Origin: Pectobacterium carotovorum
GTDB taxonomy: Bacteria > Pseudomonadota > Gammaproteobacteria > Enterobacterales > Enterobacteriaceae
Length of the DNA: 64,000 nucleotides
NCBI RefSeq assembly: GCF_900129615.1
Contig: NZ_FQWI01000014.1
Coordinates: 1-64,000, forward strand
Direction: 5' to 3'
Of this stretch, positions 1-62,520 are shown in pieces. A model generated the notes under the pieces. The model ran no database searches, was not told where the DNA came from, and saw only the letters and a program-made list of their open reading frames with translations. The position numbers and the translations under genes are program-made. Positions within the stretch are counted from its first letter, which is position 1. Each line of letters starts with the position of its first letter.

Positions 1-3000
1 TCGACTTTACCCGTCACCGCAATCGTCTGGCCGGACTCGGCTGCGTTGATGACGTTGTCTGACGTGACATTATCGATAGAAATCGAAGCGACAGGTGCTA
101 CGGTATCCACGCCGTAAGTGTGACTGGTATTCGCAGTGGTCGCATTGCCTGCAGTATCGCGTGTGGTGACGGTCGCACTCACATCGCTGTTTGCAGCCAG
201 CACAGAACCGGGAACATTCACGCTCCAGGTTTTACCGTCGGTATTGACGGTCGTCTGGTAGGTCTCGGTACCCACTTTGACGGTCACCGCATCGCCTGCT
301 TTCACGTCGTTATCGACTTTACCGGTCACGGCAATCGTCTGACCCGATTCGCTGGCGTTAATCACGTTATCAGACGTGACATTGTCGATAGAGATAGACG
401 CGGTTGGGGCTACGGTATCAACACCGTAAGTATGCGAAGTATTCGCGGTCGTGGCGTTGCCTGCAGTATCACGCGTGGTGACGGTGGCGGAGATATCTCC
501 GTTGGCTGCCAGCACCGCGCCCGGAACATTGACGCTCCAGGTTTTGCCATCGGTATTGACGGTCGTCTGGTACGTTTCGGTACCCACTTTGACGGTCACC
601 GCATCGCCTGCTTTCACGTCGTTATCGACTTTACCGGTCACGGCAATCGTCTGACCCGATTCGCTGGCATTGATGACGTTATCGCTGGTGACGTTATCGA
701 TAGAAATCGAAGCCGTTGGTGCAACGGTATCGACGCCGTAAGCGTGACTGGTATTGGCGGTGGTGACATTGCCTGCGGTATCGCGCGTGGTGACCGAAGC
801 AGAGACATCACCGTTAGCAACCAGTACCGATCCCGGCACATTCACACTCCAGGTTTTGCCATCCGCATTTACCGTCGTCTGGTAGGTCTCGGTGCCGACT
901 TTGACCGTAACCGCGTCGCCCGCTTTCACGTCGTTATCGACTTTACCGGTGACGGCAATGCTCTGGCCGGACTCGCTGGCATTGATGACGTTGTCTGACG
1001 TGACATTATCGATAGAGATCGATGCGACTGGCGCAACGGTATCAACACCGTAAGCATGACTGGTATTGGCCGTGGTGACGTTACCCGCGGCATCACGGGT
1101 GGTGACCGTCGCACTCACATCACCATTCGCGGCCAGCACGGAACCCGGAACATTTACGCTCCAGGTTTTGCCGTCGGCATTGACCGTCGTCTGGTAGGTT
1201 TCGGTACCGACTTTCACCGTAACCGCATCGCCTGCTTTGACTTCATTGCCAACCTGACCAGTGACCGCAATCGTCTGGCCGGATTCAGCGGCATTGATCA
1301 CGTTATCGGACGTGACATCATCAATAGAAATTGAGGCAACAGGTGCAACGGTATCGACACTGTAAGTGTGGCTGGTGTTAGCTGTGGTAACGTTGCCCGC
1401 CGTATCGCGCGTAGTGACCGTCGCAGAGACATCACCGTTAGCAGCAAGTACAGAACCGGGAACATTCACGCTCCAGGTCTTGCCGTCGGTATTCACCGTG
1501 GTCTGGTACGTCTCGGTACCGACTTTAACCGTGATGGCATCACCCGCTTTCACGTCGTTATCGACTTTACCGGTCACGGCAATCGTCTGGCCGGATTCGG
1601 CCGCGTTAATCACGTTATCGGACGTGACATTGTCGATGCTGATAGATGCTGTCGGTGCAACGGTATCCACGCCGTAAGCATGAGAAGTATTGGCGGTGGT
1701 GACGTTGCCTGCCGTATCGCGGGTGGTCACGGTCGCCGAAACATCACCATTGGCGGCCAACACAGAACCCGGAACATTCACGCTCCAGGTTTTACCGTCG
1801 GTATTCACGGTCGTCTGGTAGGTTTCGGTACCCACTTTGACGGTCACCGCATCGCCTGCTTTCACGTCGTTATCGACTTTACCGGTCACGGCAATCGTCT
1901 GACCCGATTCGCTGGCATTGATGACGTTATCGCTGGTGACGTTATCGATAGAAATCGAAGCCGTTGGTGCAACGGTATCGACGCCGTAAGCGTGACTGGT
2001 ATTGGCGGTGGTGACATTGCCTACGGTATCGCGCGTGGTGACCGAAGCAGAGACATCACCGTTAGCAACCAGTACCGATCCCGGCACATTCACACTCCAG
2101 GTTTTGCCATCCGCATTTACCGTCGTCTGGTAGGTCTCGGTGCCGACTTTGACCGTCACCGCATCGCCCGCTTTCACGTCGTTATCGATTTTACCGGTCA
2201 CCGCAATCGTCTGGCCGGACTCGCTGGCGTTAATCACGTTATCGGACGTGACATTGTCGATGGAGATAGACGCGGTTGGTGCGACGGTATCGACGCTGTA
2301 AGCATGAGTCGTATTGGAGGTGGTGACGTTGCCTGCCGCATCACGCGTGGTGACCGAAGCAGAGATATCACCATTGGCTGCCAGCACAGCGCCCGGAACA
2401 TTCACGCTCCAGGTCTTGCCATCAGTATTCACCGTCGTCTGATAAGTCTCAGAACCAACAGTAACAGTGATCGCATCGCCCGCTTTGACTTCATTACCGA
2501 CTTGCCCGGTCACGGCAATCGTCTGGCCCGACTCGCTGACGTTAATCACGTTATCGGACGTGACATCATCAATAGAGATAGAGGCTGTCGGGGCTACGGT
2601 ATCGACACCGTAAGTGTGCGAGGTATTGGCGGTAGTGACGTTACCTGCCGTATCACGAGTGGTGACCGTCGCTGAGACATCACTGTTCGCAGCCAGCACC
2701 GAACCCGGAACGTTGACGCTCCAGGTTTTGCCATCGGTATTGACGGTCGTCTGGTACGTCTCGGTACCGACTTTAACCGTGATCGCATCACCCGCTTTCA
2801 CGTCATTACCGACTTTACCGGTCACCGCAATCGTCTGGCCGGATTCGCTGGCATTGATGACGTTATCGGACGTGACATCATCAATAGAGATAGAGGCTGT
2901 CGGCGCAACGGTATCAACGCTGTAAGCATGAGTCGTATTGGCGGTGGTCACGTTGCCTGCGGTATCGCGTGTGGTCACGGTCGCCGAAACATCGCTATTT

Positions 3001-6000
3001 GCCGCTAATACAGAACCCGGAACGTTCACGCTCCAGGTCTTGCCGTCGGTATTCACCGTCGTCTGGTAGGTCTCGGTACCGACGTTAACGGTGATGGCAT
3101 CACCGGCTTTCACTTCATTGCCGACTTTACCAGTCACGGCAATGGTCTGGCCCGATTCGCTGGCATTAATCACGTTGTCTGACGTGACGTTATCGATGGA
3201 GATCGACGCCGTTGGCGCAACCGTATCGACACCGTAAGCGTGACTGGTATTCGCAGTCGTGACATTGCCTGCAGTATCGCGCGTGGTCACTGTGGCACTC
3301 ACATCACCATTGGCTGCCAGCACTGAACCCGGAACGTTCACGCTCCAGGTTTTACCATCGGTATTCACGGTCGTCTGGTACGTTTCCGTGCCGACTTTGA
3401 CGGTAATCGCGTCGCCTGCTTTAACGTCGTTATCGACTTTACCGGTGACGGCAATGGTCTGGCCCGATTCGCTGGCGTTAATCACGTTATCGCTGGTGAC
3501 ATTGTCGATAGAGATAGACGCGGTTGGCGCAACGGTATCAACACCGTAAGCGTGACTGGTATTGGCCGTCGTGACATTGCCTGCGGTATCGCGCGTAGTG
3601 ACCGTGGCACTCACATCACCATTGGCGGCCAGCACCGATCCCGGAACGTTCACGCTCCAGGTCTTGCCGTCGGTATTGACTGTCGTCTGGTAGGTCTCGG
3701 TGCCCACTTTTACTGTCACTGCATCGCCGGCTTTGACTTCATTGCCAACTTTACCGGTCACCGCAATCGTCTGGCCCGACTCGGTAGCATTAATCACGTT
3801 ATCAGCGGTGACATTGTCGATGGAGATAGACGCGACAGGTGCTACGGTATCCACGCCATAAGCATGAGTCGTATTGGCGGTGGTCACGTTGCCTGCCGTA
3901 TCGCGAGTGGTCACAGTGGCACTCACATCTCCGTTCGCAGCCAGCACCGCTCCTGGAACATTCACGCTCCAGGTTTTGCCGTCGGTATTCACCGTCGTCT
4001 GGTACGTTTCAGTACCGATTTTTACAGTGATCGCGTCGCCCGCTTTCACGTCGTTATCGACTTTACCCGTCACCGCAATCGTCTGGCCGGACTCGGCCGC
4101 ATTAATCACGTTGTCTGACGTAACATTATCGATAGAAATCGAAGCCGTTGGTGCAACGGTATCTACGCCGTAAGTGTGGCTGGTGTTAGCTGTGGTAACG
4201 TTGCCCGCCGTATCGCGCGTGGTGACCGTCGCACTCACATCACCGTTTGCTGCTAATATCGATCCCGGAACGTTCACACTCCAGGTCTTACCATCGGTAT
4301 TGACGGTCGTCTGGTACGTCTCAGTGCCGACTTTAACCGTGATCGCGTCACCCGCTTTCACTTCATTACCGACTTGCCCGGTCACGGCAATCGTCTGACC
4401 GGACTCGCTGGCGTTAATCACGTTATCGGACGTGACATTGTCGATACTGATAGACGCCGTGGGTGCGATGGTATCAACACCGTAAGCATGAGTCGTATTG
4501 GCGGTGGTCACGTTACCTGCGGTATCGCGCGTGGTCACGGTGGCACTCACATCGCCCTTAGCTGCAAGCACCGAACCCGGAACGTTGACGCTCCAAGTTT
4601 TACCATCGGTATTCACCGTCGTCTGGTAGGTTTCGGTGCCGACTTTGACGGTAATCGCGTCGCCCGCTTTCACTTCATTGCCGACTTTACCCGTCACCGC
4701 AATCGTCTGCCCGGACTCGCTGGCATTGATGACGTTATCAGATGTGACGTTATCGATACTGATAGACGCGACTGGCGCAACGGTATCAACACCATAAGTG
4801 TGGCTGGTATTCGCGGTGGTGACATTACCCGCCGTATCACGCGTAGTGACGGTGGCAGAGATATCGCCGTTGGCTGCCAGCACAGCGCCCGGAACGTTCA
4901 CGCTCCAGGTTTTGCCATCGGTATTGACGGTGGTCTGATAGGTTTCGGTACCGACTTTCACCGTCACCGCATCGCCTGCTTTGACTTCATTACCAACCTT
5001 ACCCGTCACCGCAATCGTCTGGCCGGACTCGGCCGCGTTAATCACGTTATCGGACGTGACATTGTCGATAGAGATCGAAGCGACAGGTGCTACGGTATCA
5101 ACACCGTAAGCATGAGTCGTATTGGCGGTGGTGACGTTGCCTGCAGTATCTCGCGTGGTAACGGTGGCGGAGATATCGCCATTGGTGGCAAGAACAGAAC
5201 CGGGAACATTCACACTCCAGGTCTTACCATCGGTATTCACCGTCGTCTGGTACGTCTCGGTACCGACTTTAACCGTGATGGCATCACCCGCTTTCACGTC
5301 GTTATCGACTTTACCGGTCACGGCAATCGTCTGGCCGGATTCGGCCGCGTTAATCACGTTATCGGACGTGACATTGTCGATAGAGATCGAAGCGACAGGT
5401 GCTACGGTATCAACACCGTAAGCATGGCTGGTATTCGCAGTGGTCGCATTGCCTGCCGTATCGCGGGTAGTGACCGTCGCCGAGACATCACTGTTCGCAA
5501 CCAGCACCGATCCCGGAACGTTGACGCTCCAGGTTTTACCGTCGGTATTCACAGTGGTCTGATACGTTTCCGTGCCGACGGTAACGGTGATCGCATCGCC
5601 CGCTTTGACTTCATTGCCGACTTTACCCGTCACCGCAATGGTCTGACCGGATTCGCTGGCATTAATCACGTTATCGGACGTGACATTGTCGATGGAGATA
5701 GACGCGGTTGGTGCGACGGTATCGACGCTGTAAGCATGAGTCGTATTGGCGGTGGTGACATTACCTGCGGTATCACGCGTGGTCACTGTAGCGGAGATAT
5801 CTCCGCTCGCAGCCAGCACCGCTCCTGGAACATTCACGCTCCAGGTCTTGCCATCAGTATTCACCGTCGTCTGATAAGTCTCAGAACCAACAGTAACAGT
5901 GATCGCATCGCCCGCTTTGACTTCATTACCCACCTGACCAGTCACCGCAATCGTCTGGCCCGATTCGCTGGCGTTAATCACGTTATCGCTGGTGACATTG

Positions 6001-6338
6001 TCGACAGAGATAGACGCGGTTGGTGCGACGGTATCGACACCGTAAGCGTGACTGGTATTGGAAGTGGTGACGTTACCCGCCGCATCGCGCGTGGTGACCG
6101 AAGCAGAGATATCGCCATTGGCTGCCAGCACAGCGCCCGGAACATTGACGCTCCAGGTTTTGCCGTCAGTATTCACAGTGGTCTGATACGTTTCCGTGCC
6201 GACGGTAACGGTGATCGCATCGCCCGCTTTGACTTCATTGCCGACCTGACCAGTGACCGCAATGGTCTGACCCGATTCGCTGGCGTTAATCACGTTATCC
6301 GACGTGACGTTATCAATAGAGATTGAGGCGACAGGGGG
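1..6338 (-). repeat. Tandem array of 312-bp (104-residue) Ig-like units, at least 20 copies
   Basis: An anchor motif (usually gtaag on the plus strand) recurs at 114, 426, 738, 1050 and so on to 6042, always exactly 312 bp apart: 20 anchors with no insertion or deletion. The array begins near residue 269 of the protein and continues past the window edge. Each unit carries conserved blocks such as WSVNVPG, RDAAGNVTT and Y-[GS]-VDTVA. Two main variants of one block (VDNDVKAGD and VGNEVKAGD) are intermixed, and one unit near 2800 is a hybrid (VGNDV), which points to recombination between units. Confidence 0.97.
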
Positions 6339-7142
6339 CAAAGTATCGACCGTTACCGCTTCGCTTCCGCCCGTGCCAGGAATGCCCGCAGCATCGGTGT
6401 AGCTGCCGTCAGGAATACTGACGCGGACTTCTCCTTCAAAATTGGCGGCTGGCGTCAATGTCGCCGTCCAGCGAGTTGGATCGTTAGGATCCTGCACCAG
6501 ATTCGTTACCGAGCCGTTTGTTACGGTGATATCACTGAGGTCAAAACCAACGATCGGTTTTGTGAAGACGAAACTTACGGTGCCATCACTGTTTATGACA
6601 ATGGTGACAGAAGGCGGAGTGGTATCGGTGGAATCCGTTGCCGCAGCCAGCAACGTCGTGGATGAATCTACGCCATCCAGAACGGACGAGGCTCGGTCAG
6701 TAAACGATACGCCAGCGGTATCATAGCCAATCGGGGTAGTCACGACCTCGGCCGTCAAATTCAGAACGACCGCTGGATTGAAATGCCCACCACCGCCGTC
6801 ACCCGCTTCTCCGGTGTCATCATTACCCGCGGCAGTCGCTTCTAATACTTGCGTTGGGTCGGCGCCCTGAGCAATAGCATCTTGTATCGCCGCGACATCA
6901 TCGGCGACATCCGCATTGGCCTGAGAGGACGCATTGCTAACATCGCTCCAGCGGCTATCGCGCCCCAGATCCAATGTTTTCCCATCCGGTAATGTGATTG
7001 AAACCGCGCCGTTAGCGCCGGTCACTACCTCTTCACCGCTGTAAACCCGATCGCCAGCAACCAGCAATCTCTGGCTTCCATCAAGCGCGACGATAAAAAC
7101 TTGTCCGATAACGAATTTAATGACACCAATCACACCGTTCAA
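1..7142 (-). CDS. Giant LapA/BapA-type multi-repeat adhesin, N-terminal part (partial)
   Basis: I translated this frame on the minus strand from 7142; it stays open to the window edge (about 2,380 codons), so the C-terminus and the type I secretion signal lie outside. Residues 1-120 form a LapA/BapA-like retention module (hydrophobic start, then an Asp/Ala-rich helix ending in T-A-A-G at 103-106 and a GGGGH stretch). An Ig-like domain follows at about 170-268, then tandem 104-residue Ig-like repeats. The start is TTG; it is the only one with a good ribosome site (AAGGAG, 8-nt spacer). Proteins of this family are exported by a dedicated type I system, held in the outer membrane by the N-terminal plug, and mediate adhesion and biofilm formation. 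The divergent exporter operon next door fits. From memory the layout matches the multi-repeat adhesin locus of P. atrosepticum; that identity is inference. Confidence 0.93.
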   Translation of the reverse strand, partial: MNGVIGVIKFVIGQVFIVALDGSQRLLVAGDRVYSGEEVVTGANGAVSITLPDGKTLDLGRDSRWSDVSNASSQANADVADDVAAIQDAIAQGADPTQVLEATAAGNDDTGEAGDGGGGHFNPAVVLNLTAEVVTTPIGYDTAGVSFTDRASSVLDGVDSSTTLLAAATDSTDTTPPSVTIVINSDGTVSFVFTKPIVGFDLSDITVTNGSVTNLVQDPNDPTRWTATLTPAANFEGEVRVSIPDGSYTDAAGIPGTGGSEAVTVDTLPPVASISIDNVTSDNVINASESGQTIAVTGQVGNEVKAGDAITVTVGTETYQTTVNTDGKTWSVNVPGAVLAANGDISASVTTRDAAGNVTTSNTSHAYGVDTVAPTASISVDNVTSDNVINASESGQTIAVTGQVGNEVKAGDAITVTVGSETYQTTVNTDGKTWSVNVPGAVLAASGDISATVTTRDTAGNVTTANTTHAYSVDTVAPTASISIDNVTSDNVINASESGQTIAVTGKVGNEVKAGDAITVTVGTETYQTTVNTDGKTWSVNVPGSVLVANSDVSATVTTRDTAGNATTANTSHAYGVDTVAPVASISIDNVTSDNVINAAESGQTIAVTGKVDNDVKAGDAITVKVGTETYQTTVNTDGKTWSVNVPGSVLATNGDISATVTTRDTAGNVTTANTTHAYGVDTVAPVASISIDNVTSDNVINAAESGQTIAVTGKVGNEVKAGDAVTVKVGTETYQTTVNTDGKTWSVNVPGAVLAANGDISATVTTRDTAGNVTTANTSHTYGVDTVAPVASISIDNVTSDNVINASESGQTIAVTGKVGNEVKAGDAITVKVGTETYQTTVNTDGKTWSVNVPGSVLAAKGDVSATVTTRDTAGNVTTANTTHAYGVDTIAPTASISIDNVTSDNVINASESGQTIAVTGQVGNEVKAGDAITVKVGTETYQTTVNTDGKTWSVNVPGSILAANGDVSATVTTRDTAGNVTTANTSHTYGVDTVAPTASISIDNVTSDNVINAAESGQTIAVTGKVDNDVKAGDAITVKIGTETYQTTVNTDGKTWSVNVPGAVLAANGDVSATVTTRDTAGNVTTANTTHAYGVDTVAPVASISIDNVTADNVINATESGQTIAVTGKVGNEVKAGDAVTVKVGTETYQTTVNTDGKTWSVNVPGSVLAANGDVSATVTTRDTAGNVTTANTSHAYGVDTVAPTASISIDNVTSDNVINASESGQTIAVTGKVDNDVKAGDAITVKVGTETYQTTVNTDGKTWSVNVPGSVLAANGDVSATVTTRDTAGNVTTANTSHAYGVDTVAPTASISIDNVTSDNVINASESGQTIAVTGKVGNEVKAGDAITVNVGTETYQTTVNTDGKTWSVNVPGSVLAANSDVSATVTTRDTAGNVTTANTTHAYSVDTVAPTASISIDDVTSDNVINASESGQTIAVTGKVGNDVKAGDAITVKVGTETYQTTVNTDGKTWSVNVPGSVLAANSDVSATVTTRDTAGNVTTANTSHTYGVDTVAPTASISIDDVTSDNVINVSESGQTIAVTGQVGNEVKAGDAITVTVGSETYQTTVNTDGKTWSVNVPGAVLAANGDISASVTTRDAAGNVTTSNTTHAYSVDTVAPTASISIDNVTSDNVINASESGQTIAVTGKIDNDVKAGDAVTVKVGTETYQTTVNADGKTWSVNVPGSVLVANGDVSASVTTRDTVGNVTTANTSHAYGVDTVAPTASISIDNVTSDNVINASESGQTIAVTGKVDNDVKAGDAVTVKVGTETYQTTVNTDGKTWSVNVPGSVLAANGDVSATVTTRDTAGNVTTANTSHAYGVDTVAPTASISIDNVTSDNVINAAESGQTIAVTGKVDNDVKAGDAITVKVGTETYQTTVNTDGKTWSVNVPGSVLAANGDVSATVTTRDTAGNVTTANTSHTYSVDTVAPVASISIDDVTSDNVINAAESGQTIAVTGQVGNEVKAGDAVTVKVGTETYQTTVNADGKTWSVNVPGSVLAANGDVSATVTTRDAAGNVTTANTSHAYGVDTVAPVASISIDNVTSDNVINASESGQSIAVTGKVDNDVKAGDAVTVKVGTETYQTTVNADGKTWSVNVPGSVLVANGDVSASVTTRDTAGNVTTANTSHAYGVDTVAPTASISIDNVTSDNVINASESGQTIAVTGKVDNDVKAGDAVTVKVGTETYQTTVNTDGKTWSVNVPGAVLAANGDISATVTTRDTAGNATTANTSHTYGVDTVAPTASISIDNVTSDNVINASESGQTIAVTGKVDNDVKAGDAVTVKVGTETYQTTVNTDGKTWSVNVPGSVLAANSDVSATVTTRDTAGNATTANTSHTYGVDTVAPVASISIDNVTSDNVINAAESGQTIAVTGKV
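6825..6836 (-). other. LapG-type dialanine cleavage motif (TAAG) in the adhesin
   Basis: Codons 103-106 read T-A-A-G, preceded by PTQVLEA and followed by an Asp/Gly-rich linker ending in GGGGH. In LapA-family adhesins the periplasmic protease LapG cuts between the two alanines of this motif to release the adhesin when c-di-GMP falls. The motif and its spacing from the start fit that family; cleavage here is inferred, because LapG and LapD are not encoded in the window. Confidence 0.75.
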
Positions 7143-7524: not shown

Positions 7525-8877
7525 ATGATGCGTAGACACTCTTTTGCTTTATTACCTTTTATTACCCTTTTTTCCACAGCAACGCATGCCGAGACGATTC
7601 AGGAAGCAATAAAAAGCACGCTCTATACGCATCCTGAAGTAAGCGCCGCTATTAATAGCCGTTTTTCTGCCGAACATGATTTACGTGCGGCCAAAGGCGG
7701 ATATCTCCCTTCCATCACGCTAAGTGCAGGTGTTGGCCGCGAAGAGACCGATAGCCCCTCAACACGCGCCAGCACCAATAAGCGCGTTGAGCTCAGCCGT
7801 CAGGAATCGAGTATCAATCTAAGCCAAACGGTATTTGATGGTTTCGCCACCTCCAGCGAAGTGGGCAGACAGCGTGCCACGGTCAATTCACGCGCTTATA
7901 AAGTATTAAATACCAGTGAGGCAACGGCATTAGATACCGTTCAGGTCTATCTCAGTGTGCTGCAACGTCAGGAATTTGTCCGTCTGGCGGAAGCCAACCT
8001 TGCAAGCCATGAGCGCATTTACGATCAAATCAGGCTGCGCAGCGAACAAGGCGTTGGGCGACTGGCCGATTTGGATCAGGCGGAAGCCCGTCTTGCGCAG
8101 GCCCGTAACAACGTGCTGACAGAAAAAACCAATCTGGACGATGCAAAAATCAACTACATGAGCATTGTGGGTAAGGTACCAGAGAATTTGGTGATGCCCG
8201 ATGCTTCTGTTATCAAACTCCCCGCCTCGCTGGAAGAAGCGCTGCGTATCATGCTGGCTAACAGCCCGGCTCTGAAGTCTGCAGAATCAGATATTGAAGC
8301 CACTCAGCAGCAGTATGAGACTTCAAAATCAACGTTTTACCCGCGCCTCAATGTTGAGCTCTCTCGCACGATGGATAACAACGTTGACGGAACGCGCGGT
8401 CAAAATAATGAGTGGCAGGCGATGCTGCGGATGCGCTACAACCTGTATGAAGGCGGTAGCAGCAAAGCCAACATGGAATCAAAAGCCTATCAGGTAAAAG
8501 AAGCACAGGATGTCCGAAATAATGCCCTGCGCCTGCTGAGCGAAGAACTAAAACTAGCCTGGTCAGCGCTAAATAACTCGCGTCAGCAGCTGCCAATTGC
8601 CGCCGAATATGCCGACCGCAGTATGAAAGTGCGTACCGCCTATCAGAAGCAATTTGGCCTGGGAGAAAGGACGTTGCTGGACCTGCTGGACAGCGAGAAC
8701 GAACTGTTCACCGCACAGCGCCGTCTGGTCGAGGTTCGCTTCACCTCCCTCTACACCGAATACCGGATCGCATCCCGCATGGGAGAGCTATTAAACCGTT
8801 TAGCGATCCCAGCGCCTGATGCAGGTACCAGCTTGACAAACGTCACCACCCAAGCAGAGTTGCCGAGCCTTAATTAA
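7525..8877 (+). CDS. TolC-family outer membrane channel of a type I secretion system (LapE/BapB-like)
   Basis: The 450-residue protein starts with a signal peptide (about residues 1-22, cleavage after THA). Two long alpha-helical, coiled-coil-rich halves of the outer membrane efflux protein type follow. This family trimerises into a beta-barrel plus periplasmic tunnel and forms the exit duct for type I exporters. It is the first gene of a three-gene operon (then ABC exporter, then HlyD-like adaptor) divergent from the giant adhesin, so its substrate is very probably that adhesin. The start at 7525 has aagga at a 9-nt spacing. It is a dedicated channel, distinct from housekeeping TolC. Confidence 0.9.
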   Translation: MMRRHSFALLPFITLFSTATHAETIQEAIKSTLYTHPEVSAAINSRFSAEHDLRAAKGGYLPSITLSAGVGREETDSPSTRASTNKRVELSRQESSINLSQTVFDGFATSSEVGRQRATVNSRAYKVLNTSEATALDTVQVYLSVLQRQEFVRLAEANLASHERIYDQIRLRSEQGVGRLADLDQAEARLAQARNNVLTEKTNLDDAKINYMSIVGKVPENLVMPDASVIKLPASLEEALRIMLANSPALKSAESDIEATQQQYETSKSTFYPRLNVELSRTMDNNVDGTRGQNNEWQAMLRMRYNLYEGGSSKANMESKAYQVKEAQDVRNNALRLLSEELKLAWSALNNSRQQLPIAAEYADRSMKVRTAYQKQFGLGERTLLDLLDSENELFTAQRRLVEVRFTSLYTEYRIASRMGELLNRLAIPAPDAGTSLTNVTTQAELPSLN

Positions 8878-8955: not shown

Positions 8956-11205
8956 ATGAAGCTGCATTCAGTACAAGAGACAAATGGTTCTGATAAATCA
9001 GTTGCCCAGGAGTCTATCGTCCAAGAGCCAACTGTCCATGAATCGACTGGTGTTCATGAGCCCATCATTCATGAACACAGTGACCCTCGCAGCCGTCATG
9101 ACGATCCCTTATTGGATAGCTTGCTGATCCTCTGCACCTTGCAGGGGAAATCTGTCAGTCGTACGACACTCACCGCGGGGCTCCCTTTAGCCAACCAGCG
9201 GTTATCGGTAAAATTGCTCCCAAGAGCTGCTGCACGTGCGGGGTTACAAGGACGCGTTCTCAAACGTTCTCTGAATAAAATTTCCGAAATGTCGCTCCCC
9301 GCGATGTTGCTGTTACGGGAAGGAGGTGCGGCGATTCTGTTAGGCTGGAATGCTGACGGCAGCGCGCGTCTGATGCCCAGTGAAACAGAAGGCGGAGAAA
9401 TTTCCGTTGAGCACAATACGCTGCAACAGAATTACCTCGGTCTGGTGATGTTCGCCCAGCCTCGCCATCAGTTCGATCTGCAAAATCCGTCTCTGATCCC
9501 CCGAACCAAATCCTGGTTCAAAGATACGCTTAAACTTTCACGCTCACTCTATCTCGATGCCGTCCTCGCCAGTTTGCTGGTGAACATTATCGCGCTTGCC
9601 ACGCCGCTGTTCGTGATGAATGTTTACGACCGCGTTGTGCCTAATCAGGCAACGGCGACACTATGGGTGCTGGCTATCGGCGTTACCGGCGCGTTTATTT
9701 TCGATTTGATACTCAAAACGCTGCGCGGCATTTGCCTCGATATGGCGGGCAAGAAAACCGACCTGATTATTTCCGCCACGTTATTTGAACGCATTACCGG
9801 TATGTCGATGAAGGCTCGACCTCCACGGGTCGGGAGCTTTGCACAAAATATTCATGAATTTCAGTCGCTCAGAGATTTCCTGTCGTCACTGACGCTGACG
9901 ACGCTGATCGATTTTCCTTTTACGCTGCTTCTGCTGCTGGTTATCGGCATCATCGGCGGCCCTCTGGTCTGGGTTTCCATACTGGCCTACCCTATCGCCC
10001 TGCTGGCAAGCTGGGCGATGCAAAAGCCGCTGTCCGCGACCATTGAAAAAACGATGCACCTTGCCAGTGAACGGCAGGCTACGCTGATCGAAACCTTGAG
10101 CTGTCTGGACGCAATCAAGGTCAATAATGCGGAAAGTGAACGGCAGCACCAGTGGGAACAGACCATTGGCAGCCTGAGCAAGCTGGAAATGCGGGCCAAG
10201 GCACTGTCTTCATTGGCGGTAAACCTGACGCAGTGGTTCCAGCAATTTGCTGGCGTTGCCATGATTGTCGTCGGCGTCTATATGCTGATTAACGGCAAAC
10301 TCAGTATGGGTGGGCTGATTGCCTGTTACATGCTGAACGGCAGAGCGCTCATGCCGTTGGGCCAACTTTCTGGGCTGGTCAGCCGTTACCAACAAGCACG
10401 TTTGACGATGCAAACCACCGAACAGATGATGCAGCTGCCACAAGAGCGTAGCGATAACGAACGCCCGCTGAAGCGCGAGAGCATCCGGGGCGGTATTGAA
10501 TTTCGTGATGTGACGTTTAATTATCCGGAACAAAAAACCAGTTCGCTGCAAGGCATCAGCCTGACCATCGCGCCCGGCGAGAAAGTGGGCGTCATCGGCC
10601 GCAGCGGTTCAGGCAAAAGCTCGCTGCAAAAACTGATCGTAAACCTCTATCAGCCTAATACGGGCAATATTCTCATCGACGGCGTCGATGCTCGTCAGTT
10701 GGATGTCAGCGATTTACGCCACAATATCGGTTATGTTCCTCAGGATATTCAGCTATTTAGTGGCTCGCTGCGCAATAACCTGATTAGCGGCGCACGCTAT
10801 GTCGAAGACGAAGCCATGTTGCGAGCCGCAGAAATTTCAGGGGTGAACGAGTTTGCTCGTCTGCACCCCGATGGCTACAACCTTCAGGTGGGTGAACGCG
10901 GCCAACAACTCTCCGGCGGGCAGCGTCAGGCTGTCGCGATAGCCAGAGCGCTGCTGCTCGATCCGCCGATTCTGGTGCTGGATGAACCCACCAGCTCGAT
11001 GGATAACACCAGCGAAGATCGGTTAAAGCAAGCCCTGGCACCCGTGATTGCAGAGAAAACGCTCTTACTGGTCACTCATCGGGTTTCCATGCTGGCACTG
11101 GTCGATCGTTTAGTGATTGTCGACAGAGGCAAAATTATTGCTGATGGGCCGAAAGCAATCGTGATGGATGCGTTGAAGAAGGGGCAAATCAATGCGTCTC
11201 GGTAA
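8956..11205 (+). CDS. Type I secretion ABC exporter, LapB/BapC-like
   Basis: This 749-residue permease/ATPase powers export through the inner membrane. Residues 45-170 resemble a C39-like domain without a clear catalytic Cys/His arrangement, as in exporters that bind but do not cut their substrate. ABC transmembrane helices span about 195-460. The ATPase domain shows Walker A (GRSGSGKSS, near 547), the signature LSGGQRQ (near 651), Walker B (ILVLDEPTS, near 672) and the H-loop (VTHR). The first 45 residues are an unusual low-complexity tail of repeating V-[QH]-E-[PS] units. The gene overlaps the following adaptor gene by 14 bp, so the two are translationally coupled. Confidence 0.93.
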   Translation: MKLHSVQETNGSDKSVAQESIVQEPTVHESTGVHEPIIHEHSDPRSRHDDPLLDSLLILCTLQGKSVSRTTLTAGLPLANQRLSVKLLPRAAARAGLQGRVLKRSLNKISEMSLPAMLLLREGGAAILLGWNADGSARLMPSETEGGEISVEHNTLQQNYLGLVMFAQPRHQFDLQNPSLIPRTKSWFKDTLKLSRSLYLDAVLASLLVNIIALATPLFVMNVYDRVVPNQATATLWVLAIGVTGAFIFDLILKTLRGICLDMAGKKTDLIISATLFERITGMSMKARPPRVGSFAQNIHEFQSLRDFLSSLTLTTLIDFPFTLLLLLVIGIIGGPLVWVSILAYPIALLASWAMQKPLSATIEKTMHLASERQATLIETLSCLDAIKVNNAESERQHQWEQTIGSLSKLEMRAKALSSLAVNLTQWFQQFAGVAMIVVGVYMLINGKLSMGGLIACYMLNGRALMPLGQLSGLVSRYQQARLTMQTTEQMMQLPQERSDNERPLKRESIRGGIEFRDVTFNYPEQKTSSLQGISLTIAPGEKVGVIGRSGSGKSSLQKLIVNLYQPNTGNILIDGVDARQLDVSDLRHNIGYVPQDIQLFSGSLRNNLISGARYVEDEAMLRAAEISGVNEFARLHPDGYNLQVGERGQQLSGGQRQAVAIARALLLDPPILVLDEPTSSMDNTSEDRLKQALAPVIAEKTLLLVTHRVSMLALVDRLVIVDRGKIIADGPKAIVMDALKKGQINASR

Positions 11206-12553
11206 ATATATCAAACGAATCAAACGGTATTTTGTCGGCGGAGATGAAGAGAGCCTGCAAACGATGCCAGAAGTGAGCCGGGCAATGGCCGAGGATTCGC
11301 CACGTTCTATTCGCTTCACGCTGTGGGCTATCGGTGCTTTTTTCCTGTTTTTCATCCTGTGGGCCGGGCTCGCGAATATCGATGAAGTCACGCGGGGTGA
11401 CGGTAAAGCCATTCCATCCTCTCGACTGCAAAAAATCCAAAACCTGGAAGGCGGCATTATCACGGAAGTATTCATTCGTGAGGGACAAGTCGTCAATGCA
11501 GGCGATCCTTTGCTGCGCCTTGATGATACGCGCTTTGCCTCCAACGTCGGTGAAACCGAAGCTGACCGGCTTGCGCTACTGTCGCGAATTGAACGCCTGA
11601 ACGCCGAAATCAACGGCCAAGAGCTTGTGCTTTCCGAAGAAATCACGACGCAAGCGCCTAAAATCGCGGCAGGAGAAAAAGAGCTTTATAACAGCCGCCG
11701 CCAGCAGTTGCATAATGAGATATCCGGTCTGGAAGAACAGTTGATCCAGCGCCAGCAGGAACTGCGGGACTTCTCAGCCAAAGAGATTCAGTTCCGCAAC
11801 AGTCTTGGCCTGCTCCAGCAAGAAATTAAAATGTCAGAACCGCTGATCGCGGAAGGCGCGATTTCTAAAGTAGAAGTTCTACGCCTGCGCCGTGCTGAAG
11901 TCGAAACCCGTGGCCAGCTTGATTCCATCAAACTCTCCATTCCGCGGGCGGAGTCTGCGATTAAAGAGAGTGAGAATAAAATAGAAGAAACGCGCAGCCG
12001 CTATAAAAGCGAAGCGTTATCTCAGTTGAGTGAAGCACAAACCAGCCTGAACAAAATTGAAGCCACAGGGAAAGCGCTCGAAGATCGGGTAAACCGAACG
12101 CTGGTCGTCTCCCCGGTTCGCGGTATCGTACAGCAGGTTCTGGTGAATACCATCGGGGGAGTGATTCAACCGGGTAGCGATCTGGTAGAAATTGTTCCAC
12201 TAGATGACAAGCTGTTGGTCGAGGCTAAAATTCGCCCTCAGGATATTGCGTTTTTACACCCTGGTCAGGACGCCATCATAAAATTAACGGCCTACGACTA
12301 CACCATCTATGGTGGCCTAAAAGGCCAGTTGGAACAAATCAGCCCGGACACCGTCACTGATAAAGAAGGCAACAGCTTTTATATTATTCGCTTACGGACT
12401 GATAAGAATTATTTAGGTTCAGCCGATAAACCACTTCTTATCATTCCTGGCATGGTGGCCTCTGTGGATATAATCACAGGCAAGAAAACTATCCTCAGCT
12501 ATTTGTTAAAACCGATTATTCGGGCAAACGCAGAAGCACTACGAGAAAGATAA
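11192..12553 (+). CDS. HlyD/LapC-like membrane fusion protein of the type I system
   Basis: The 453-residue protein has a short cytoplasmic N-terminus, one transmembrane helix at about 41-60, a biotinyl-lipoyl-like segment (IQNLEGGIITEVFIREGQ), a long coiled-coil hairpin (about 150-280) and a C-terminal beta-barrel segment. HlyD-family adaptors bridge the inner membrane exporter and the TolC-like duct. It is the last gene of the operon, overlaps the exporter gene by 14 bp, and is followed at once by a strong bidirectional terminator. Confidence 0.93.
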   Translation: MRLGKYIKRIKRYFVGGDEESLQTMPEVSRAMAEDSPRSIRFTLWAIGAFFLFFILWAGLANIDEVTRGDGKAIPSSRLQKIQNLEGGIITEVFIREGQVVNAGDPLLRLDDTRFASNVGETEADRLALLSRIERLNAEINGQELVLSEEITTQAPKIAAGEKELYNSRRQQLHNEISGLEEQLIQRQQELRDFSAKEIQFRNSLGLLQQEIKMSEPLIAEGAISKVEVLRLRRAEVETRGQLDSIKLSIPRAESAIKESENKIEETRSRYKSEALSQLSEAQTSLNKIEATGKALEDRVNRTLVVSPVRGIVQQVLVNTIGGVIQPGSDLVEIVPLDDKLLVEAKIRPQDIAFLHPGQDAIIKLTAYDYTIYGGLKGQLEQISPDTVTDKEGNSFYIIRLRTDKNYLGSADKPLLIIPGMVASVDIITGKKTILSYLLKPIIRANAEALRER

Positions 12554-12594: not shown

Positions 12595-14109
12595 TCAATG
12601 ATCGTTCATGTTGTGATAAATCTGAGTTTGACTGCGCCCCATGGCTTTAGCTTGGTACATGGCGGAATCGGCATTAATTGCCAGCGTCAGAGAATCGGAG
12701 CCGTGTTCTGGATACAGCGCAATACCGATGCTGCACGATATATCCAGTTTTTTCCCGTTGATCTCAAAAGGTTTATTCAATGCGTTATGGATTTTATCTG
12801 CAACATAGAGTGTATTATCAATTTCCTTAATACCCTGAAGCAGAATAATAAATTCATCACCGCTACGGCGATATACCGTATCCGAATCCCGAACCGCACC
12901 ACGCATACGTGCAGCCGCTTCTTTTAATAACAAATCGCCAACAGCATGCCCAAACGAGTCGTTGATCTGTTTAAATTTATCGAGATCCAGGAACATCAGC
13001 GCGATTTTTCTACCCGTTTGTTTGGATAGCAGAATCGCCTGTTCCATTTGTTCGGCAAACGTCAGGCCATTAGCCAGTGACGTTAATGAGTCATAGTGCG
13101 CCAGTTGCCGATAGTGTTCCTCGCTCCGCCGCAGCATATCAATGGCATGATATCGCTCTATGGCAATCGCAATCAGCTGTGCCGACTTCTCGATAGAGAA
13201 AATTTCCTCTTCGGTCGGCACATACACTTTGCGATGATAAACGCTTAAAACCCCTAATATTTCTTTGTTCTGACCAATGATAGGTTCAGACCAGCAGGAA
13301 CGCAGCCCGGCATATAATGCGAGCCCTTTATATAAAGACCAATGCGGATGCACGGAAATATCGTCAGCAATCACGCGTTTTCCGGTATAGGCCGCAGTAC
13401 CAAAAGAAGCCACACCATCGGCAATTTTCACGTTGTGAATGGCATTTTTATAAAAACCTGGCAGGCTCGGTGCCGATCCAAGCGTCAAACATTTCTTTTC
13501 TTTATCAACGAGCAGTACAGAACAAACGATACGGCCAGGGTTTTTTTCCTCAACGCTGAAAATGATCGCGTCCAGGATATCCTTCAGCGGTGCGCCGCTT
13601 GATAACAGCTCCAACGCACGATTGTATGAATTATCATGATGTTCCTGTGATTTCCGCTCGGTAATATCTAACTTAATGCCGACATACTGGGTCGTGTTAC
13701 TCGCCTTATTATATATTTTAACGATATTGGCCTTTTCCCAATACAACTGACCATCTTTACGCCGATTAACGAACTCACCGCTCCAAACATTACCTTTATT
13801 TATGGTAGCCCACAGATCTTCATAGACGCTGGCGTTGGTCATGCCAGAGTTTAATATATTCGTTTTTTTGCCAATAACTTCATCTGGCATATAGCCAGAC
13901 ATGGTAATAAACTGGCGATTGACGTAAATAATTTCACAATTTTCATCTGCGATCATAATTGAGGCAGGGCTATATTCCATCGCAAAAAAAGTCATGTTGA
14001 GGAAGTCTTGTTTTTTCTGCTCAGTTTTAAACTTTTGTTTAATTTTTCTATTTTTTACAGAAGAAAACAATAACAATAACAACAGTAGGGTTATTATAAT
14101 TTCATACAC
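12595..14109 (-). CDS. PAS-GAF-GGDEF protein with a non-canonical SGDEF motif
   Basis: This 504-residue protein has an N-terminal hydrophobic helix (about 3-17), a PAS domain (about 43-152), a GAF domain (about 165-320) and a GGDEF domain (about 337-500). The active-site motif reads S-G-D-E-F at 416-420 in place of GGDEF. An RxxD motif (RDSD, 407-410) sits five residues before it, the usual place of the inhibitory c-di-GMP site. From memory, the P. atrosepticum adhesin locus contains a diguanylate cyclase with the same non-canonical motif that affects adhesin secretion (I recall the name GcpA); equivalence is inferred from position and motif. The start is GTG with a gaggag ribosome site. It converges on the secretion operon. 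Confidence 0.9.
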   Translation of the reverse strand: MYEIIITLLLLLLLFSSVKNRKIKQKFKTEQKKQDFLNMTFFAMEYSPASIMIADENCEIIYVNRQFITMSGYMPDEVIGKKTNILNSGMTNASVYEDLWATINKGNVWSGEFVNRRKDGQLYWEKANIVKIYNKASNTTQYVGIKLDITERKSQEHHDNSYNRALELLSSGAPLKDILDAIIFSVEEKNPGRIVCSVLLVDKEKKCLTLGSAPSLPGFYKNAIHNVKIADGVASFGTAAYTGKRVIADDISVHPHWSLYKGLALYAGLRSCWSEPIIGQNKEILGVLSVYHRKVYVPTEEEIFSIEKSAQLIAIAIERYHAIDMLRRSEEHYRQLAHYDSLTSLANGLTFAEQMEQAILLSKQTGRKIALMFLDLDKFKQINDSFGHAVGDLLLKEAAARMRGAVRDSDTVYRRSGDEFIILLQGIKEIDNTLYVADKIHNALNKPFEINGKKLDISCSIGIALYPEHGSDSLTLAINADSAMYQAKAMGRSQTQIYHNMNDH

Positions 14110-14896: not shown

Positions 14897-15688
14897 CTAA
14901 AGTTCAAGCTTCAACGTCTCAAAATTCTCAAACGGCTGAGGGCGCGAGAGGTAGTATCCTTGGGCAGCATAAGCATGCGAGGCCTGAACAATTGCCCACT
15001 CTTCCTTTGTTTCGATTCCCTCAATGACCACATAATTGCAAAAACGCGATAGCAAAGCGATCAACGCCGGGAAAACGGTTTTCCCTTCACCACTTTGTTG
15101 CAGGAGAATGAAGAGCTCACGTGCCACTTTGATGCAATCATACTGAGCCAGCATGAGTGATGAAAAATTCGCCATACCGCAGCCAAAATCATCCAGCCAC
15201 AGTGTTTGCGCTTCTGGAAGCTTGGTTAAGATTTCTTTTGGCAGCCCTCCCTGATTTTCGACCATTTCAAAACGAATCCAGGGCATTGCCGCGATCAGAC
15301 GTTTGGCTTCCAGACTATTTTGCAACGCGAGTAGCGTCATACCATCAATATTGACAGAGGCAAAAAGATCGTCACGAGTAAATCGAAAACTCCACTGAGA
15401 TAAAAGTTGCAGTTGTTCTACAATAATTAAAAGGCGGGTTTCAACATCGATATTCGCGAAGTATTTTTCAGGAGAGATGAACTTTTGCGGCAGGGTAGGA
15501 GAAAAAACGGAAGTCAGTAACTCAATAGCCATTAATTTACCTGATGTTCGGTAAATGGGCTGAAAAGTATACCGCCGTTGGCATTGGTGCCAGTAATCAG
15601 CGCCTAATGGCTCTGCGTCTCCCTGTTGGAAAAATCCTGCCCCAACCTGATTAAGATGACCTTCCTGCTGCACTATGAGTTCCGCCAT
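14897..15688 (-). CDS. EAL-domain protein with a variant ELL signature (putative c-di-GMP phosphodiesterase)
   Basis: The 263-residue protein is a stand-alone EAL domain with no sensor or membrane segment. The signature reads E-L-L (56-58) instead of E-A-L, keeping the metal-ligand Glu. Other catalytic-type residues are visible: Asn113 (SVNID), Glu141 (FEMVE), the DDFG motif at 166-169, Lys187, EGIET at 223-227 and QGY at 243-245. It is therefore probably an active phosphodiesterase or c-di-GMP binder, not a dead domain. It lies in the same orientation as the SGDEF gene. From memory, an EAL gene sits at the equivalent place in the P. atrosepticum adhesin locus. It is well placed to oppose the cyclase locally. 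Confidence 0.87.
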   Translation of the reverse strand: MAELIVQQEGHLNQVGAGFFQQGDAEPLGADYWHQCQRRYTFQPIYRTSGKLMAIELLTSVFSPTLPQKFISPEKYFANIDVETRLLIIVEQLQLLSQWSFRFTRDDLFASVNIDGMTLLALQNSLEAKRLIAAMPWIRFEMVENQGGLPKEILTKLPEAQTLWLDDFGCGMANFSSLMLAQYDCIKVARELFILLQQSGEGKTVFPALIALLSRFCNYVVIEGIETKEEWAIVQASHAYAAQGYYLSRPQPFENFETLKLEL

Positions 15689-26026: not shown

Positions 26027-26424
26027 CCGAGGTAATCTCTACTCAAACCGTTCTCCACGCGTAAACGCAAAATAGTACTGCCAGCTATATAAGTCATATT
26101 TAGAGCAAGCTCCTCATTAGAACCAAGACATCCAATAAAGTTCCGAGTCATCATTTTTCTTTTGCTTAGCGCCGTTACTCGTCTTTGCGATGCGTATCAT
26201 GACGCATTCTCTTCATCACACATTGTCTTCATCAAAAATGGTCTTCATCTGAGGCTCTACACTTCTCCGAGGATGATACGATAAATCTGGGATAGGCGCA
26301 CGATTCAGCATGTCCTACTTTTCGCTTATTTATAGCGTAAACATGGGGCTAAAAACCAATGCAGCAATCAACCATTGGGTGCTACCATCGGATTTCCTCT
26401 TCTTTTTGCACCCACGACACGACC
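26027..26424. other. Divergent rpoE/nadB promoter region
   Basis: This 398-bp region has no gene. On the rpoE side it holds a sigma-E-type promoter (26117-26144). The nadB side should carry the nadB promoter; I could not identify a NadR operator by eye. Confidence 0.5.
26117..26144 (-). promoter_or_regulatory. Sigma-E-type promoter of rpoE
   Basis: On the minus strand GGAACTT (26144-26138) is followed by 16 nt and TCTAA (26121-26117), matching the sigma-E -35 and -10 elements and spacing. Autoregulation of rpoE is well known in enterobacteria. Confidence 0.75.
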
Positions 26425-60039: not shown

Positions 60040-62520
60040 TTATTGACCAAACATTTCTTTGATCCAGTCAGCGACGCCTTCTCCGTTTTGCTGGTCCTGC
60101 TGCGCTGAAGGCTGCGGCTGGCTAGCCTGACACAGCGCCTGCGGATTATCCGTCCAGACCGGCAATACGCGCCCGGCGCTGCTGCCGTTGCAGATAAAGT
60201 TACCGCTGGCATCTACCGTCATAGTCGTAATGCCTTCCGGCGGCGTCAGCATCAACGGCAGCGGCGTTTGGTTCTCCAGATAGCGACGATAAATCGTCAG
60301 CGCACCGTTCGCCCCGGTCAACTTGGCCGGGCCGTTGTTATCGCGCCCTACCCAGCTAATCGCCACTTCTTTACCGTCGATCCCAGCAAACCAGCTATCA
60401 CGCAGGTCGTTAGTCGTACCGGTTTTCGCCGCCAGATGATAATTCGGGAATTTCACCGCCAGCGAGCGCGACGTACCGCGTTCAACAACCTGCTGCATGC
60501 CATACAGCGTCAGATAAGCCGCCTGCGCCGGAACCGCGCGTTCCGCCTGCGGGAAGCTCTGATACAGCACCGTACCGTCTTCCGCAATCACTGAACGCAG
60601 TGAGGAAAGCGGTGCACGGTTGCCGCCGCTAGCGATCGTTTGGTATTCCTGCGCCACTTCCATCGGCGTCAGACTGATCGCTCCCAGCAGCATCGCCGGT
60701 ACAGGCTGGATCACGTTTTCAGGAATCCCTAAACGCTTCAACGTTTCCGTGATCTGATTCAGCCCCACGGCCATCCCCAGATTGACGGTCGGCACGTTCA
60801 GCGAGTTTGCCAGCGCATCAACCAGCATGACGCGGCCACGGAACTCACGATCGTAGTTCTTCGGCTGCCACAGCTGCCCGTTAGGCTGTTTGATCGACAG
60901 CGGTTCATCCGCCAGCAGGGTATTCAGACGATAGGTGTCCGGCTGGCTCAGCGCGGTCAGGTAGGTCGGCGGCTTCGCCAACGATCCGACAGGACGACGC
61001 GCCTGTAGCGCACGGTTAAACCCGGCGTACTGCGTTTGAGCACCACCAACCATCGCGCGGACTTCGCCGCTGAAGCGATCGACAATCACCATCGCCGCTT
61101 CCAGATCGCTGACGTTACGGCCTGCACGCAATGCCGGAACCCCGACTTCCACCGCTTTTTCCGCCGCATCCTGCGAGACCGGATCGAGCGTGGTAAAGAT
61201 TTTCACGCCGGAGAGATCGTTAACCTTGTCGCCAAGCCGCTGTTGCAGTTCCTGACGCACCAGTTGCATAAACGCCGGCTGAGGACTGATGACGCCGCCT
61301 TTCGGCTGCACACCCAGCGGGCGCGCACTCAGCATGTTGTACAGATCGGCATCAATAACCTGCTGATTCTGCAACAGACGCAGCACCAGATTGCGTCGTT
61401 CTAACGTAATCTGTGGGTTACGCCACGGGTTATACAGCGACGCCCCTTTCACCATGCCCACCAGCAACGCCTGCTGATCGAGGCTCAGTTCATTCACCGG
61501 ACGACCAAAGTAGTACAGGCTGGCAAGCGGGAAGCCGCGGATCTGATCGTTACCGCTCTGACCGAGGTACACCTCGTTCAGATACAGTTCAAGGATACGA
61601 TCCTTGCTGTAGCGATAATCCATGATCAGCGCCATATAGGCTTCGTTAGCTTTACGCCACAGCGAACGCTCGTTGGTCAGGAACAGGTTCTTAACCAACT
61701 GCTGCGTCAGCGTACTACCGCCCTGTACTGCACGCCCCGCCGTGATGTTCGCTAAGAACGCACGGCCAATGGAGTACAGGCTGATACCATCGTGCTCATA
61801 AAAATGACGGTCTTCGGTCGCGACCAGTGTATCAACCAGCAGATCGGGGAAACCAGCACGCGGCACGAACAAACGCTGTTCGCCATTCGGCGACTGCATC
61901 ATGGTGATCAATTTCGGATCGAGACGGAAAAAGCCGAAGTTACGCTGGTTGTCCAGATTCTGGATCTGCGACAAACGATCGTTGGCAAACGTCAGGCGCG
62001 CCTGAATCTGCCCTTCTTTTCCATCGGGGAAATCAAACGGACGGCGCAGCATATCGATGCTGTTGCCACGCACGCTGAATTCACCCGGACGGGTAATGCG
62101 GCTCACCTGACGGTATTGCATGCCTTCCAGCAGACTGATCATCTCTTTCTGGCTATAGGCCATGCCCGGCTCAAGGTTAACCATGCGGCCATAGACGGCG
62201 GCCGGCAATTGCCAGACTTTGCCTTCAATACGGCTACGGATCTGGCTGTCGAGGTATACGCCATAGATCGCCATCGCTACGGCAAAGATCAGGAACAGCT
62301 TGATCGCCAGCCCCAGCCAGCGCCGTCTTCTCTGCGATTTACGCGTCATGGTGTCATCGCCGTCGTAATCATCATCGTCGTCATAGTCGTCCTGATAATC
62401 GTCATAGTCTTCATCATCATAGTCGTCATCCCTGCGACGTCGTATGGCCTGCTTACGTTCAGGCTTACGTTTTGGCGCTCTCCCTTTGCGCCCGATAGGT
62501 TCGCGGTCATCCCGAGACAT
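60040..62520 (-). CDS. mrcB: Penicillin-binding protein 1B
   Basis: PBP1B polymerises and cross-links peptidoglycan. The 826-residue protein has a basic then very acidic Asp/Tyr-rich cytoplasmic tail (1-65), one membrane helix (about 69-90), the glycosyltransferase domain with [10 protein letters not shown] from 236, and the transpeptidase domain with SLAK near 513, SLN and KTGTTND near 700. Length is close to the 844 residues of E. coli. It lies 102 bp after hrpB. Confidence 0.97.

Follow-up and report, generated by a model that had tools for sequence, protein, structure and literature searches.

Constant unit length over codon-diverse DNA in the tandem array of a LapA-type adhesin gene of Pectobacterium

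The window analysed here, a stretch of 64,000 nt of Pectobacterium carotovorum (assembly GCF_900129615.1, contig NZ_FQWI01000014.1, positions 1 to 64,000), opens with a tandem array of 312-bp units that is read on the minus strand of an adhesin gene. The array is very probably the stalk of the Pectobacterium LapA-type adhesin, with a unit length that is fixed by selection on the encoded domain together with in-register recombination between units. Each 312-bp unit would encode one 104-residue Ig-like extender domain, with at least 31 of them in a row if the units missing from the assembly are regular. By analogy with the LapA and MpIBP families, the retention module would hold the protein in the outer membrane until LapG, under the control of the cyclic di-GMP (c-di-GMP) receptor LapD, cuts it at a TAAG motif. 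Calcium at the domain joints would stiffen the stalk, and the C-terminal end would carry the secretion signal. An indel other than a whole number of units would break the reading frame or the domain and be selected against, and in-register recombination would gain, lose and mix units with their length unchanged. The unit length would then show no drift because partial indels are selected against and recombination is in register. We infer both this causal role of recombination and the function of the protein.

The geometry of the array is exact. Tandem Repeats Finder (TRF) reports a period of 312 with 20.3 copies, 81% matches and 0% indels at positions 2–6330, and base-by-base autocorrelation reaches its peaks, of about 0.81, at lags of 624, 312 and 936; among unrelated lags from 100 to 999 the highest value is 0.37. 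Twenty complete units lie end to end at 99–6338 on the minus strand, each exactly 312 bp (104 residues) long and without stop codons. They are Ig-like extender units of the families NF012196 (Ig_like_ice) and NF033510 (Ca_tandemer), and a protein profile gives a spacing of 104 residues in 19 of 19 steps. Beyond the complete units, positions 1–98 (minus strand) hold the first 98 bp, in the coding direction, of a 21st unit that is truncated by the contig end. The longest exact repeat within the array is 201 bp. An earlier reading made from the sequence only had described at least 20 units spaced exactly 312 bp apart without indels, and these data agree with it. It had also stated that the array runs out of the window. 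This is correct in a particular way, as the contig itself (C20 in our numbering) ends at position 1 and the array resumes on another contig of the same genome, C18.

The comparison was extended to the genus, using collections that hold one genome per species. The N-terminal region of the gene was found in all 25 Pectobacterium genomes searched, the source genome included, and 20 stretches from 20 of the 24 other genomes were compared, leaving out four drafts of 60–170 contigs (G007, G009, G015 and G017). A profile built from the window units detected 404 units and 381 spacings in 17 genomes. The spacing is 104 residues in 370 cases and 103 residues in ten, all of which belong to one array of P. 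fontis (G013); a single spacing of 73 residues occurs in G001. In P. fontis the same glycine codon is absent from all 11 units read, and it is present in 392 of the 393 units elsewhere. Ten intact 104-residue arrays contain 13–39 units, and the 103-residue array contains 11. In ten genomes besides the source genome, assembled in 1–3 contigs, the 104-residue array lies in one open frame, and every spacing is 104 in nine of them.

The window-unit profile found no units in G014, G018 and G023, and the piece available from G019 holds none. In the first three, the same gene ends enclose arrays of another kind: 40 units of 92 residues in G018, and 22 and 20 units of 144 residues in G014 and G023, respectively, all at constant spacing. 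TRF, applied to 23 named loci, reports periods of 312 (seven loci), 309 (two), 318 (two), and 294, 303 and 276 (one each), all of them multiples of three. No period was found in nine of the 23 loci, eight of which end at a contig end. Unit length is thus constant within an array, apart from the exceptions named, and differs between arrays. A separate observation concerns loci L028, L029, L030 and L033, where the same retention module and RTX end enclose stalk domains of 92 (G018), 144 (G014, G023) or 103 residues (G013), compared with 104 in the other genomes profiled; the stalk type looks replaceable as a block. Matches to the unit were also seen on contigs that do not carry the retention module (G008:C7, G010:C11 and C1, G015:C27 and C11, G007:C13 and C34), and these were excluded from the counts. 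The main locus of G008 already has both gene ends, so its contig C7 carries either a second array or an assembly duplicate.

The protein encoded by the units is held by purifying selection, and their DNA is far from uniform. Among the units of C20, mean identity is 0.818 for DNA and 0.912 for protein, with proportions of differing synonymous (pS) and nonsynonymous (pN) sites of 0.540 and 0.057; the corresponding values for C18 are 0.816, 0.912, 0.548 and 0.062. At columns with a near-constant residue, codon diversity amounts to 68% of that in random draws at the codon usage of 21 other genes of the window. Silent sites are much diverged, though short of fully random. Strong selection on repeat length, as the sequence-only reading had proposed, is therefore supported in the form of selection on the domain, by the low pN relative to pS and the predominance of 104-residue spacings. 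It does not hold as an absolute rule, given the array with 103 residues throughout and the single spacing of 73 residues.

The 144-residue arrays show the reverse. In the two 144-residue arrays (L029, 9456–18061, and L030, 8593–18068), divergence at 4-fold degenerate sites is 0.085 and 0.096 within the arrays and 0.199 between the genomes. The between-array figure is close to that for the N-terminal regions of the same two genomes, which differ at 14 of 71 4-fold sites; their last 350 residues differ less, at 19 of 168. The 144-residue units have thus been homogenised as DNA, in contrast to the 104-residue units that occupy this locus in other genomes. The 92-residue array has a 4-fold divergence of 0.308, and its spacing is constant as well.

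The number of units in the source genome was approached from both ends of the gene. The window starts at base 1 of C20, where the assembly cuts the array, and a genome search showed that the end of C18 bears more of the same repeat. The stretch C18:108000–126001 (L009) contains 9.8 repeat copies by TRF and nine complete units by the protein profile, followed by the remainder of the adhesin gene with a stop at C18:120656. The orientation and reading direction of the start on C20 and the end on C18 are consistent with one gene, and C20 has the only full-length match to the N-terminal region among the matches listed for the source genome. When aligned in the register of the units, the ends of the two contigs share an overlap of 56 bp, in which 13 bases differ. 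A direct overlap join was therefore ruled out, which leaves a gap of 312n − 56 bp, with n of at least 1. The 20 units of C20, the nine of C18 and the two from a minimal gap give at least 31 units, if the gap units are regular. In G016, whose N-terminal region is the closest among the relatives, the array has 31 units.

The copy number had been called uncertain from the sequence, and rightly so: the assembly breaks inside the array, and 19 of the 23 related loci, as read off the listing by hand, likewise run into the end of a contig on the side of the retention module where the array lies. Passages of PMC7493085 contain the authors' warning that repeat numbers of RTX extenders are under-represented in databases. 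Copy numbers from draft genomes are unsuitable for use, as stalk length should, by inference from MpIBP, set the reach of the adhesin.

The closest pair of genomes compared is G004 and G005. Their identity is 98.4% in the 867 bp that precede the array, 98.9% in the 3249 bp that follow it, and 97.4–98.6% in two aligned pieces downstream of the gene. At the array edge identity falls to a mean of 0.842, with no pair of units above 0.917. In the closest pair of units, 0.194 of the 4-fold sites differ, compared with 0.038 in the N-terminal region. The two arrays are nevertheless undifferentiated in their codons, with a fixation index (Fst) of −0.001 and about 99% of the common codons of each occurring in the other; for G000 in G002 the shared fraction is 78%. 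G004 and G005 share no recognisable orthologous unit. Residual collinearity was considered, as the −1 diagonal has the highest mean identity of 51 and the 0 diagonal the third highest, and was ruled out: when exact blocks of 24, 39 or 78 nt are scored, no diagonal lies above the permutation range. Aligned 104-nt blocks of the two arrays gave no match, although identical runs of 151 and 125 nt occur outside them.

The same comparison was made for 120 genome pairs from 16 of the 25 genomes, omitting those with other unit lengths (G013, G014, G018 and G023) as well as G017, G007, G009, G015 and G019. The minimum divergence between units exceeds the N-terminal divergence in all eight pairs in which the latter is lowest, and the ninth pair does not show this. 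Some pair of units is closer than the N-terminal regions in 80 of the 120 genome pairs, so that the loss of orthology is shown for close pairs only.

Within arrays, excess linkage between variable sites decays over 4–27 bp in all 12 arrays fitted. Identical runs of at least 60 bp between units number 12 in the source genome, whereas 20 codon shuffles gave 0.0 on average and never more than 1. Such runs exceed those of codon-shuffled arrays in ten of ten arrays tested, from five against 0.2 in G006 up to 201 against 4.2 in G002. Such a pattern would be expected if units had been exchanged in register many times over within each lineage. Reshuffling of short tracts fits best with lost orthology and a shared codon pool, an argument that leans on one very close pair. 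We tentatively suggest, at somewhat less than even likelihood, that the Ig-like units swap very short tracts fast enough to erase orthology before the rest of the gene has diverged by more than a few percent, with a silent codon pool that stays large and is shared between species. If true, a nearly constant protein stalk would be encoded by diverse DNA that is continually re-dealt. The silent diversity would then limit the long perfect repeats that are prone to deletion, like the recoding of MpAFP repeats described below.

Several minor observations belong to this part of the analysis. The notion that adjacent units are kept different did not prove general: it clearly applies only to G002, and neighbours are more alike in five of 11 arrays. 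In G002 (L022, 39 units) neighbours are more different than random and some distant units are up to 99% identical, a pattern that resembles higher-order repeats. Chi sites, considered as a possible driver of exchange and counted on both strands, number zero in the 6.3-kb array and seven in the other 57.7 kb of the window, numbers that are too few to judge. An Escherichia coli comparator for same-species variation (H5, from a plasmid collection) was discarded, as its adhesin is of a different type, its units are degenerate and TRF reported no array at the score applied. Several "plasmid" records of 3.6–4.9 Mb in the plasmid collection look like chromosomes; in the E. coli one, L061 (NZ_CP134663.1), an open frame of 6935 codons encodes an Ig-like adhesin whose degenerate units are each about 100 residues long.

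A number of observations weigh against the account given at the outset. The codon loss in P. fontis means that an array can take up a change of length throughout, and such spreading is itself homogenisation of a kind. The 73-residue spacing of G001 (L027) lies in an otherwise regular 104-residue array, and indicates that an off-length change can persist. The reading frame is interrupted within the array in G008, G020 and G024, and in G018 it breaks close to the array's 3′ end (the broken-frame loci are L031, L032, L028 and L035); the adhesin frame of G020 is in several pieces, and TRF reports 1% indels in the G018 array. Unless these breaks are sequencing errors rather than decay, an intact frame is not universal. 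The link between C18 and C20 lacks a spanning read. Finally, identical runs of at least 60 bp between genomes occur only in G004–G005 (28 against 1.9 in shuffled arrays), and the five other pairs tested have none.

Ongoing homogenisation of the DNA, or concerted evolution, was the other cause that the sequence-only reading had offered for the missing indels, and we consider it improbable as the process that keeps unit length constant. Identity within the array (0.82 in C20) is indeed slightly higher than identity to other 104-residue arrays (0.78–0.81), and differentiation rises with the divergence of the flanks (rho 0.58, over 120 non-independent pairs of 16 genomes). The long identical runs above the shuffled null, the codon deletion common to all 11 P. 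fontis units read, and the greater likeness of neighbours than random in five of 11 arrays (P of 0.04 or less) point in the same direction. However, units that differ at about half of their synonymous sites, with 68% of random codon diversity, are hardly uniform as DNA, and homogenisation has not given the 144-residue arrays a more regular length than the diverse arrays have. Since homogenised and codon-diverse arrays are equally constant in length, length constancy is no report of homogenisation, and this part of the earlier proposal is not sustained. Exchange between units seems to occur, yet it has left their DNA dissimilar. The caution to be drawn, by this one locus, is that an exact repeat length is no sign of DNA homogenisation; the question raised is why 144-residue arrays undergo ordinary homogenisation, whereas those of 104 residues retain a high silent diversity and appear to be re-dealt between close relatives. 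An identity of 0.54 between the G013 array and others was discarded as an artefact of ungapped comparison of 103 with 104 residues, and the corrected values are 0.76–0.79 (eight arrays). It is far less probable still that the array, or its exact regularity, is an artefact of assembly. The break of the window assembly in the array, the 19 of 23 related loci that end on that side and an exact repeat of 201 bp, longer than many short reads, would favour this explanation. Some of the compared arrays may contain assembly error, and two single-contig genomes (G018 and G020) have broken frames. The explanation is opposed by the ten other genomes of 1–3 contigs, in which a single open frame spans the 104-residue array and, in nine cases, every spacing is 104. 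Moreover, the differences between units are mostly synonymous, unlike consensus errors, and mixing of reads of at least 100 bp should leave linkage at that scale rather than at 4–27 bp.

Two further explanations bear on the missing orthologous units between close genomes. A raised rate of silent-site mutation in the array, instead of reshuffling, would account for the high codon diversity of the arrays examined and for their low linkage. It would not readily explain a differentiation that climbs with flank divergence rather than staying flat, the sharing of common codon variants (about 99% in the closest pair, 78% for G000 in G002), or identical runs of 60–150 bp within arrays above the null, and we regard it as slightly less probable even than concerted evolution. 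Alternatively, homologous recombination in the conserved flanks could exchange whole arrays between strains, and the differing arrays would then be imports. This is a more serious contender than raised mutation, although we still judge it unlikely. Relatedness conflicts between the gene ends in G000–G011 (pS of 0.443 for the N-terminal and 0.155 for the C-terminal part) and in G000–G001 (0.210 and 0.417), which is a sign of recombination between species at the adhesin locus, and the same gene ends carry arrays of 92, 103, 104 or 144 residues in different genomes. For G004 and G005, by contrast, import would need both breakpoints at the array edges as well as the same codon pool (Fst −0.001). 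Short-tract reshuffling remains our preferred account of this pair, and import from other strains may feed it, as the gene ends conflict in relatedness for some pairs.

On sequence grounds, the gene is predicted to be the LapA-type multi-repeat adhesin of Pectobacterium already described as MRP/ECA3266. The adhesin, its secretion genes and its size variation are already known. A table in a review, PMC6584795, places ECA3266 of P. atrosepticum among the type I secreted multi-repeat adhesins and connects it with ECA3270 and ECA3271, and PMC3974145, in the portion consulted, reports ECA3270 as active with an SGDEF motif. A survey of twelve Pectobacterium species describes the cluster in every one; the adhesin gene varies greatly in size, and one subspecies has a pseudogene (PMC6963963). 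The window gene resembles MRP/ECA3266 as a type I secreted multi-repeat adhesin adjoining an SGDEF diguanylate cyclase and an EAL protein. No feature separating the window copy from it was found in this comparison, which was made by neighbourhood and published description. The parts of the published descriptions consulted gave no unit-level DNA analysis of MRP/ECA3266.

The likeness to the LapA/LapD/LapG system of Pseudomonas fluorescens comprises the retention module, the TAAG motif, LapD, LapG, lapEBC and the RTX C-terminal end. It differs in gene order, as the source genome has lapG and lapD on C18, downstream of the adhesin, with lapEBC upstream and divergently oriented; the repeat type presumably also differs from that of LapA. 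Region II of MpIBP/MpAFP from Marinomonas primoryensis shares the 104-residue (312-bp) unit, is a Ca-dependent Ig-like extender and gives the best solved match. Its approximately 120 copies are said to be identical at the DNA level in passages of PMC4083281, in contrast to the 82% DNA identity of the window array, and the same passages mention that they were recoded by others to about 70% DNA identity before cloning. Periscope proteins are also rods of tandem domains with repeat numbers that vary between strains, for which excerpts of PMC9704523 propose recombination. The high DNA identity between periscope repeats is not found here (mean 0.818, range 0.766–0.936 in C20; protein 91%), and repeat-number variation was seen between species, the collections searched holding one genome for each. 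The Acinetobacter BAP is likewise a giant adhesin with Ig-like arrays, and its authors suggest, in the accessible part of PMC4647330, that module diversity lowers slippage. Its modules vary in length and protein sequence, whereas here the protein is nearly constant and the diversity lies in the codons. Polyubiquitin is a precedent for a constant protein encoded by diverged DNA. Among the matches listed, neither titles nor abstract openings dealt with silent codon diversity in RTX adhesin arrays, which is weak evidence of absence.

The 5′ part of the gene occupies positions 1–7142 on the minus strand, comprises 2380 codons here and leaves the contig at position 1; its TTG start codon (7140–7142) follows AAGGAG. 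The N-terminal retention module (6711–7130, minus strand) scores 112.7 bits with NF033682 (retention_LapA), above the cut-off of 50, and matches the solved 5ix9 chain. The TAAG motif at residues 103–106 (6825–6836, minus strand) is located after the core of the module, and we take it to be the expected LapG cleavage site (motif TAAG/AAAG). A single Big_12 Ig-like domain (6348–6626, minus strand) is positioned between the retention module and the array. Two units taken together have the MpAFP RII tetra-tandemer 4p99 as their best solved match (E 9.4e-65). The description of the units as adhesin repeats was accordingly well founded, as the retention module, the Ig-like extender families and the 4p99 match all agree. 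The C18 part, assigned to this gene by register and orientation, ends in RTX repeats (HemolysinCabind) and a T1SS_VCA0849 domain. It is followed by LapG (L009, 9452–10141; 378.3 bits against an equivalog cut-off of 320) and LapD (L009, 10151–12103; 1083.8 bits against an equivalog cut-off of 1020).

On the other side of the gene, the plus strand encodes a LapE-like outer-membrane channel of the TolC family (7525–8877), a LapB-like type I secretion permease/ATPase of the LssB subfamily (8956–11205) and a LapC-like periplasmic adaptor of the HlyD family (11192–12553). These are followed on the minus strand by a PAS-GAF-GGDEF diguanylate cyclase (12595–14109), with a non-canonical SGDEF motif as described for ECA3270, and by an EAL c-di-GMP phosphodiesterase (14897–15688), which is probably the counterpart of ECA3271, the protein that the review pairs with ECA3270. 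Elsewhere in the window there are two short tandem repeats, one with a 16-bp unit in 3.3 copies at 26197–26249 and one at 62361–62430, a 15/12-bp CGTCGTCATCATCAT-type tract.

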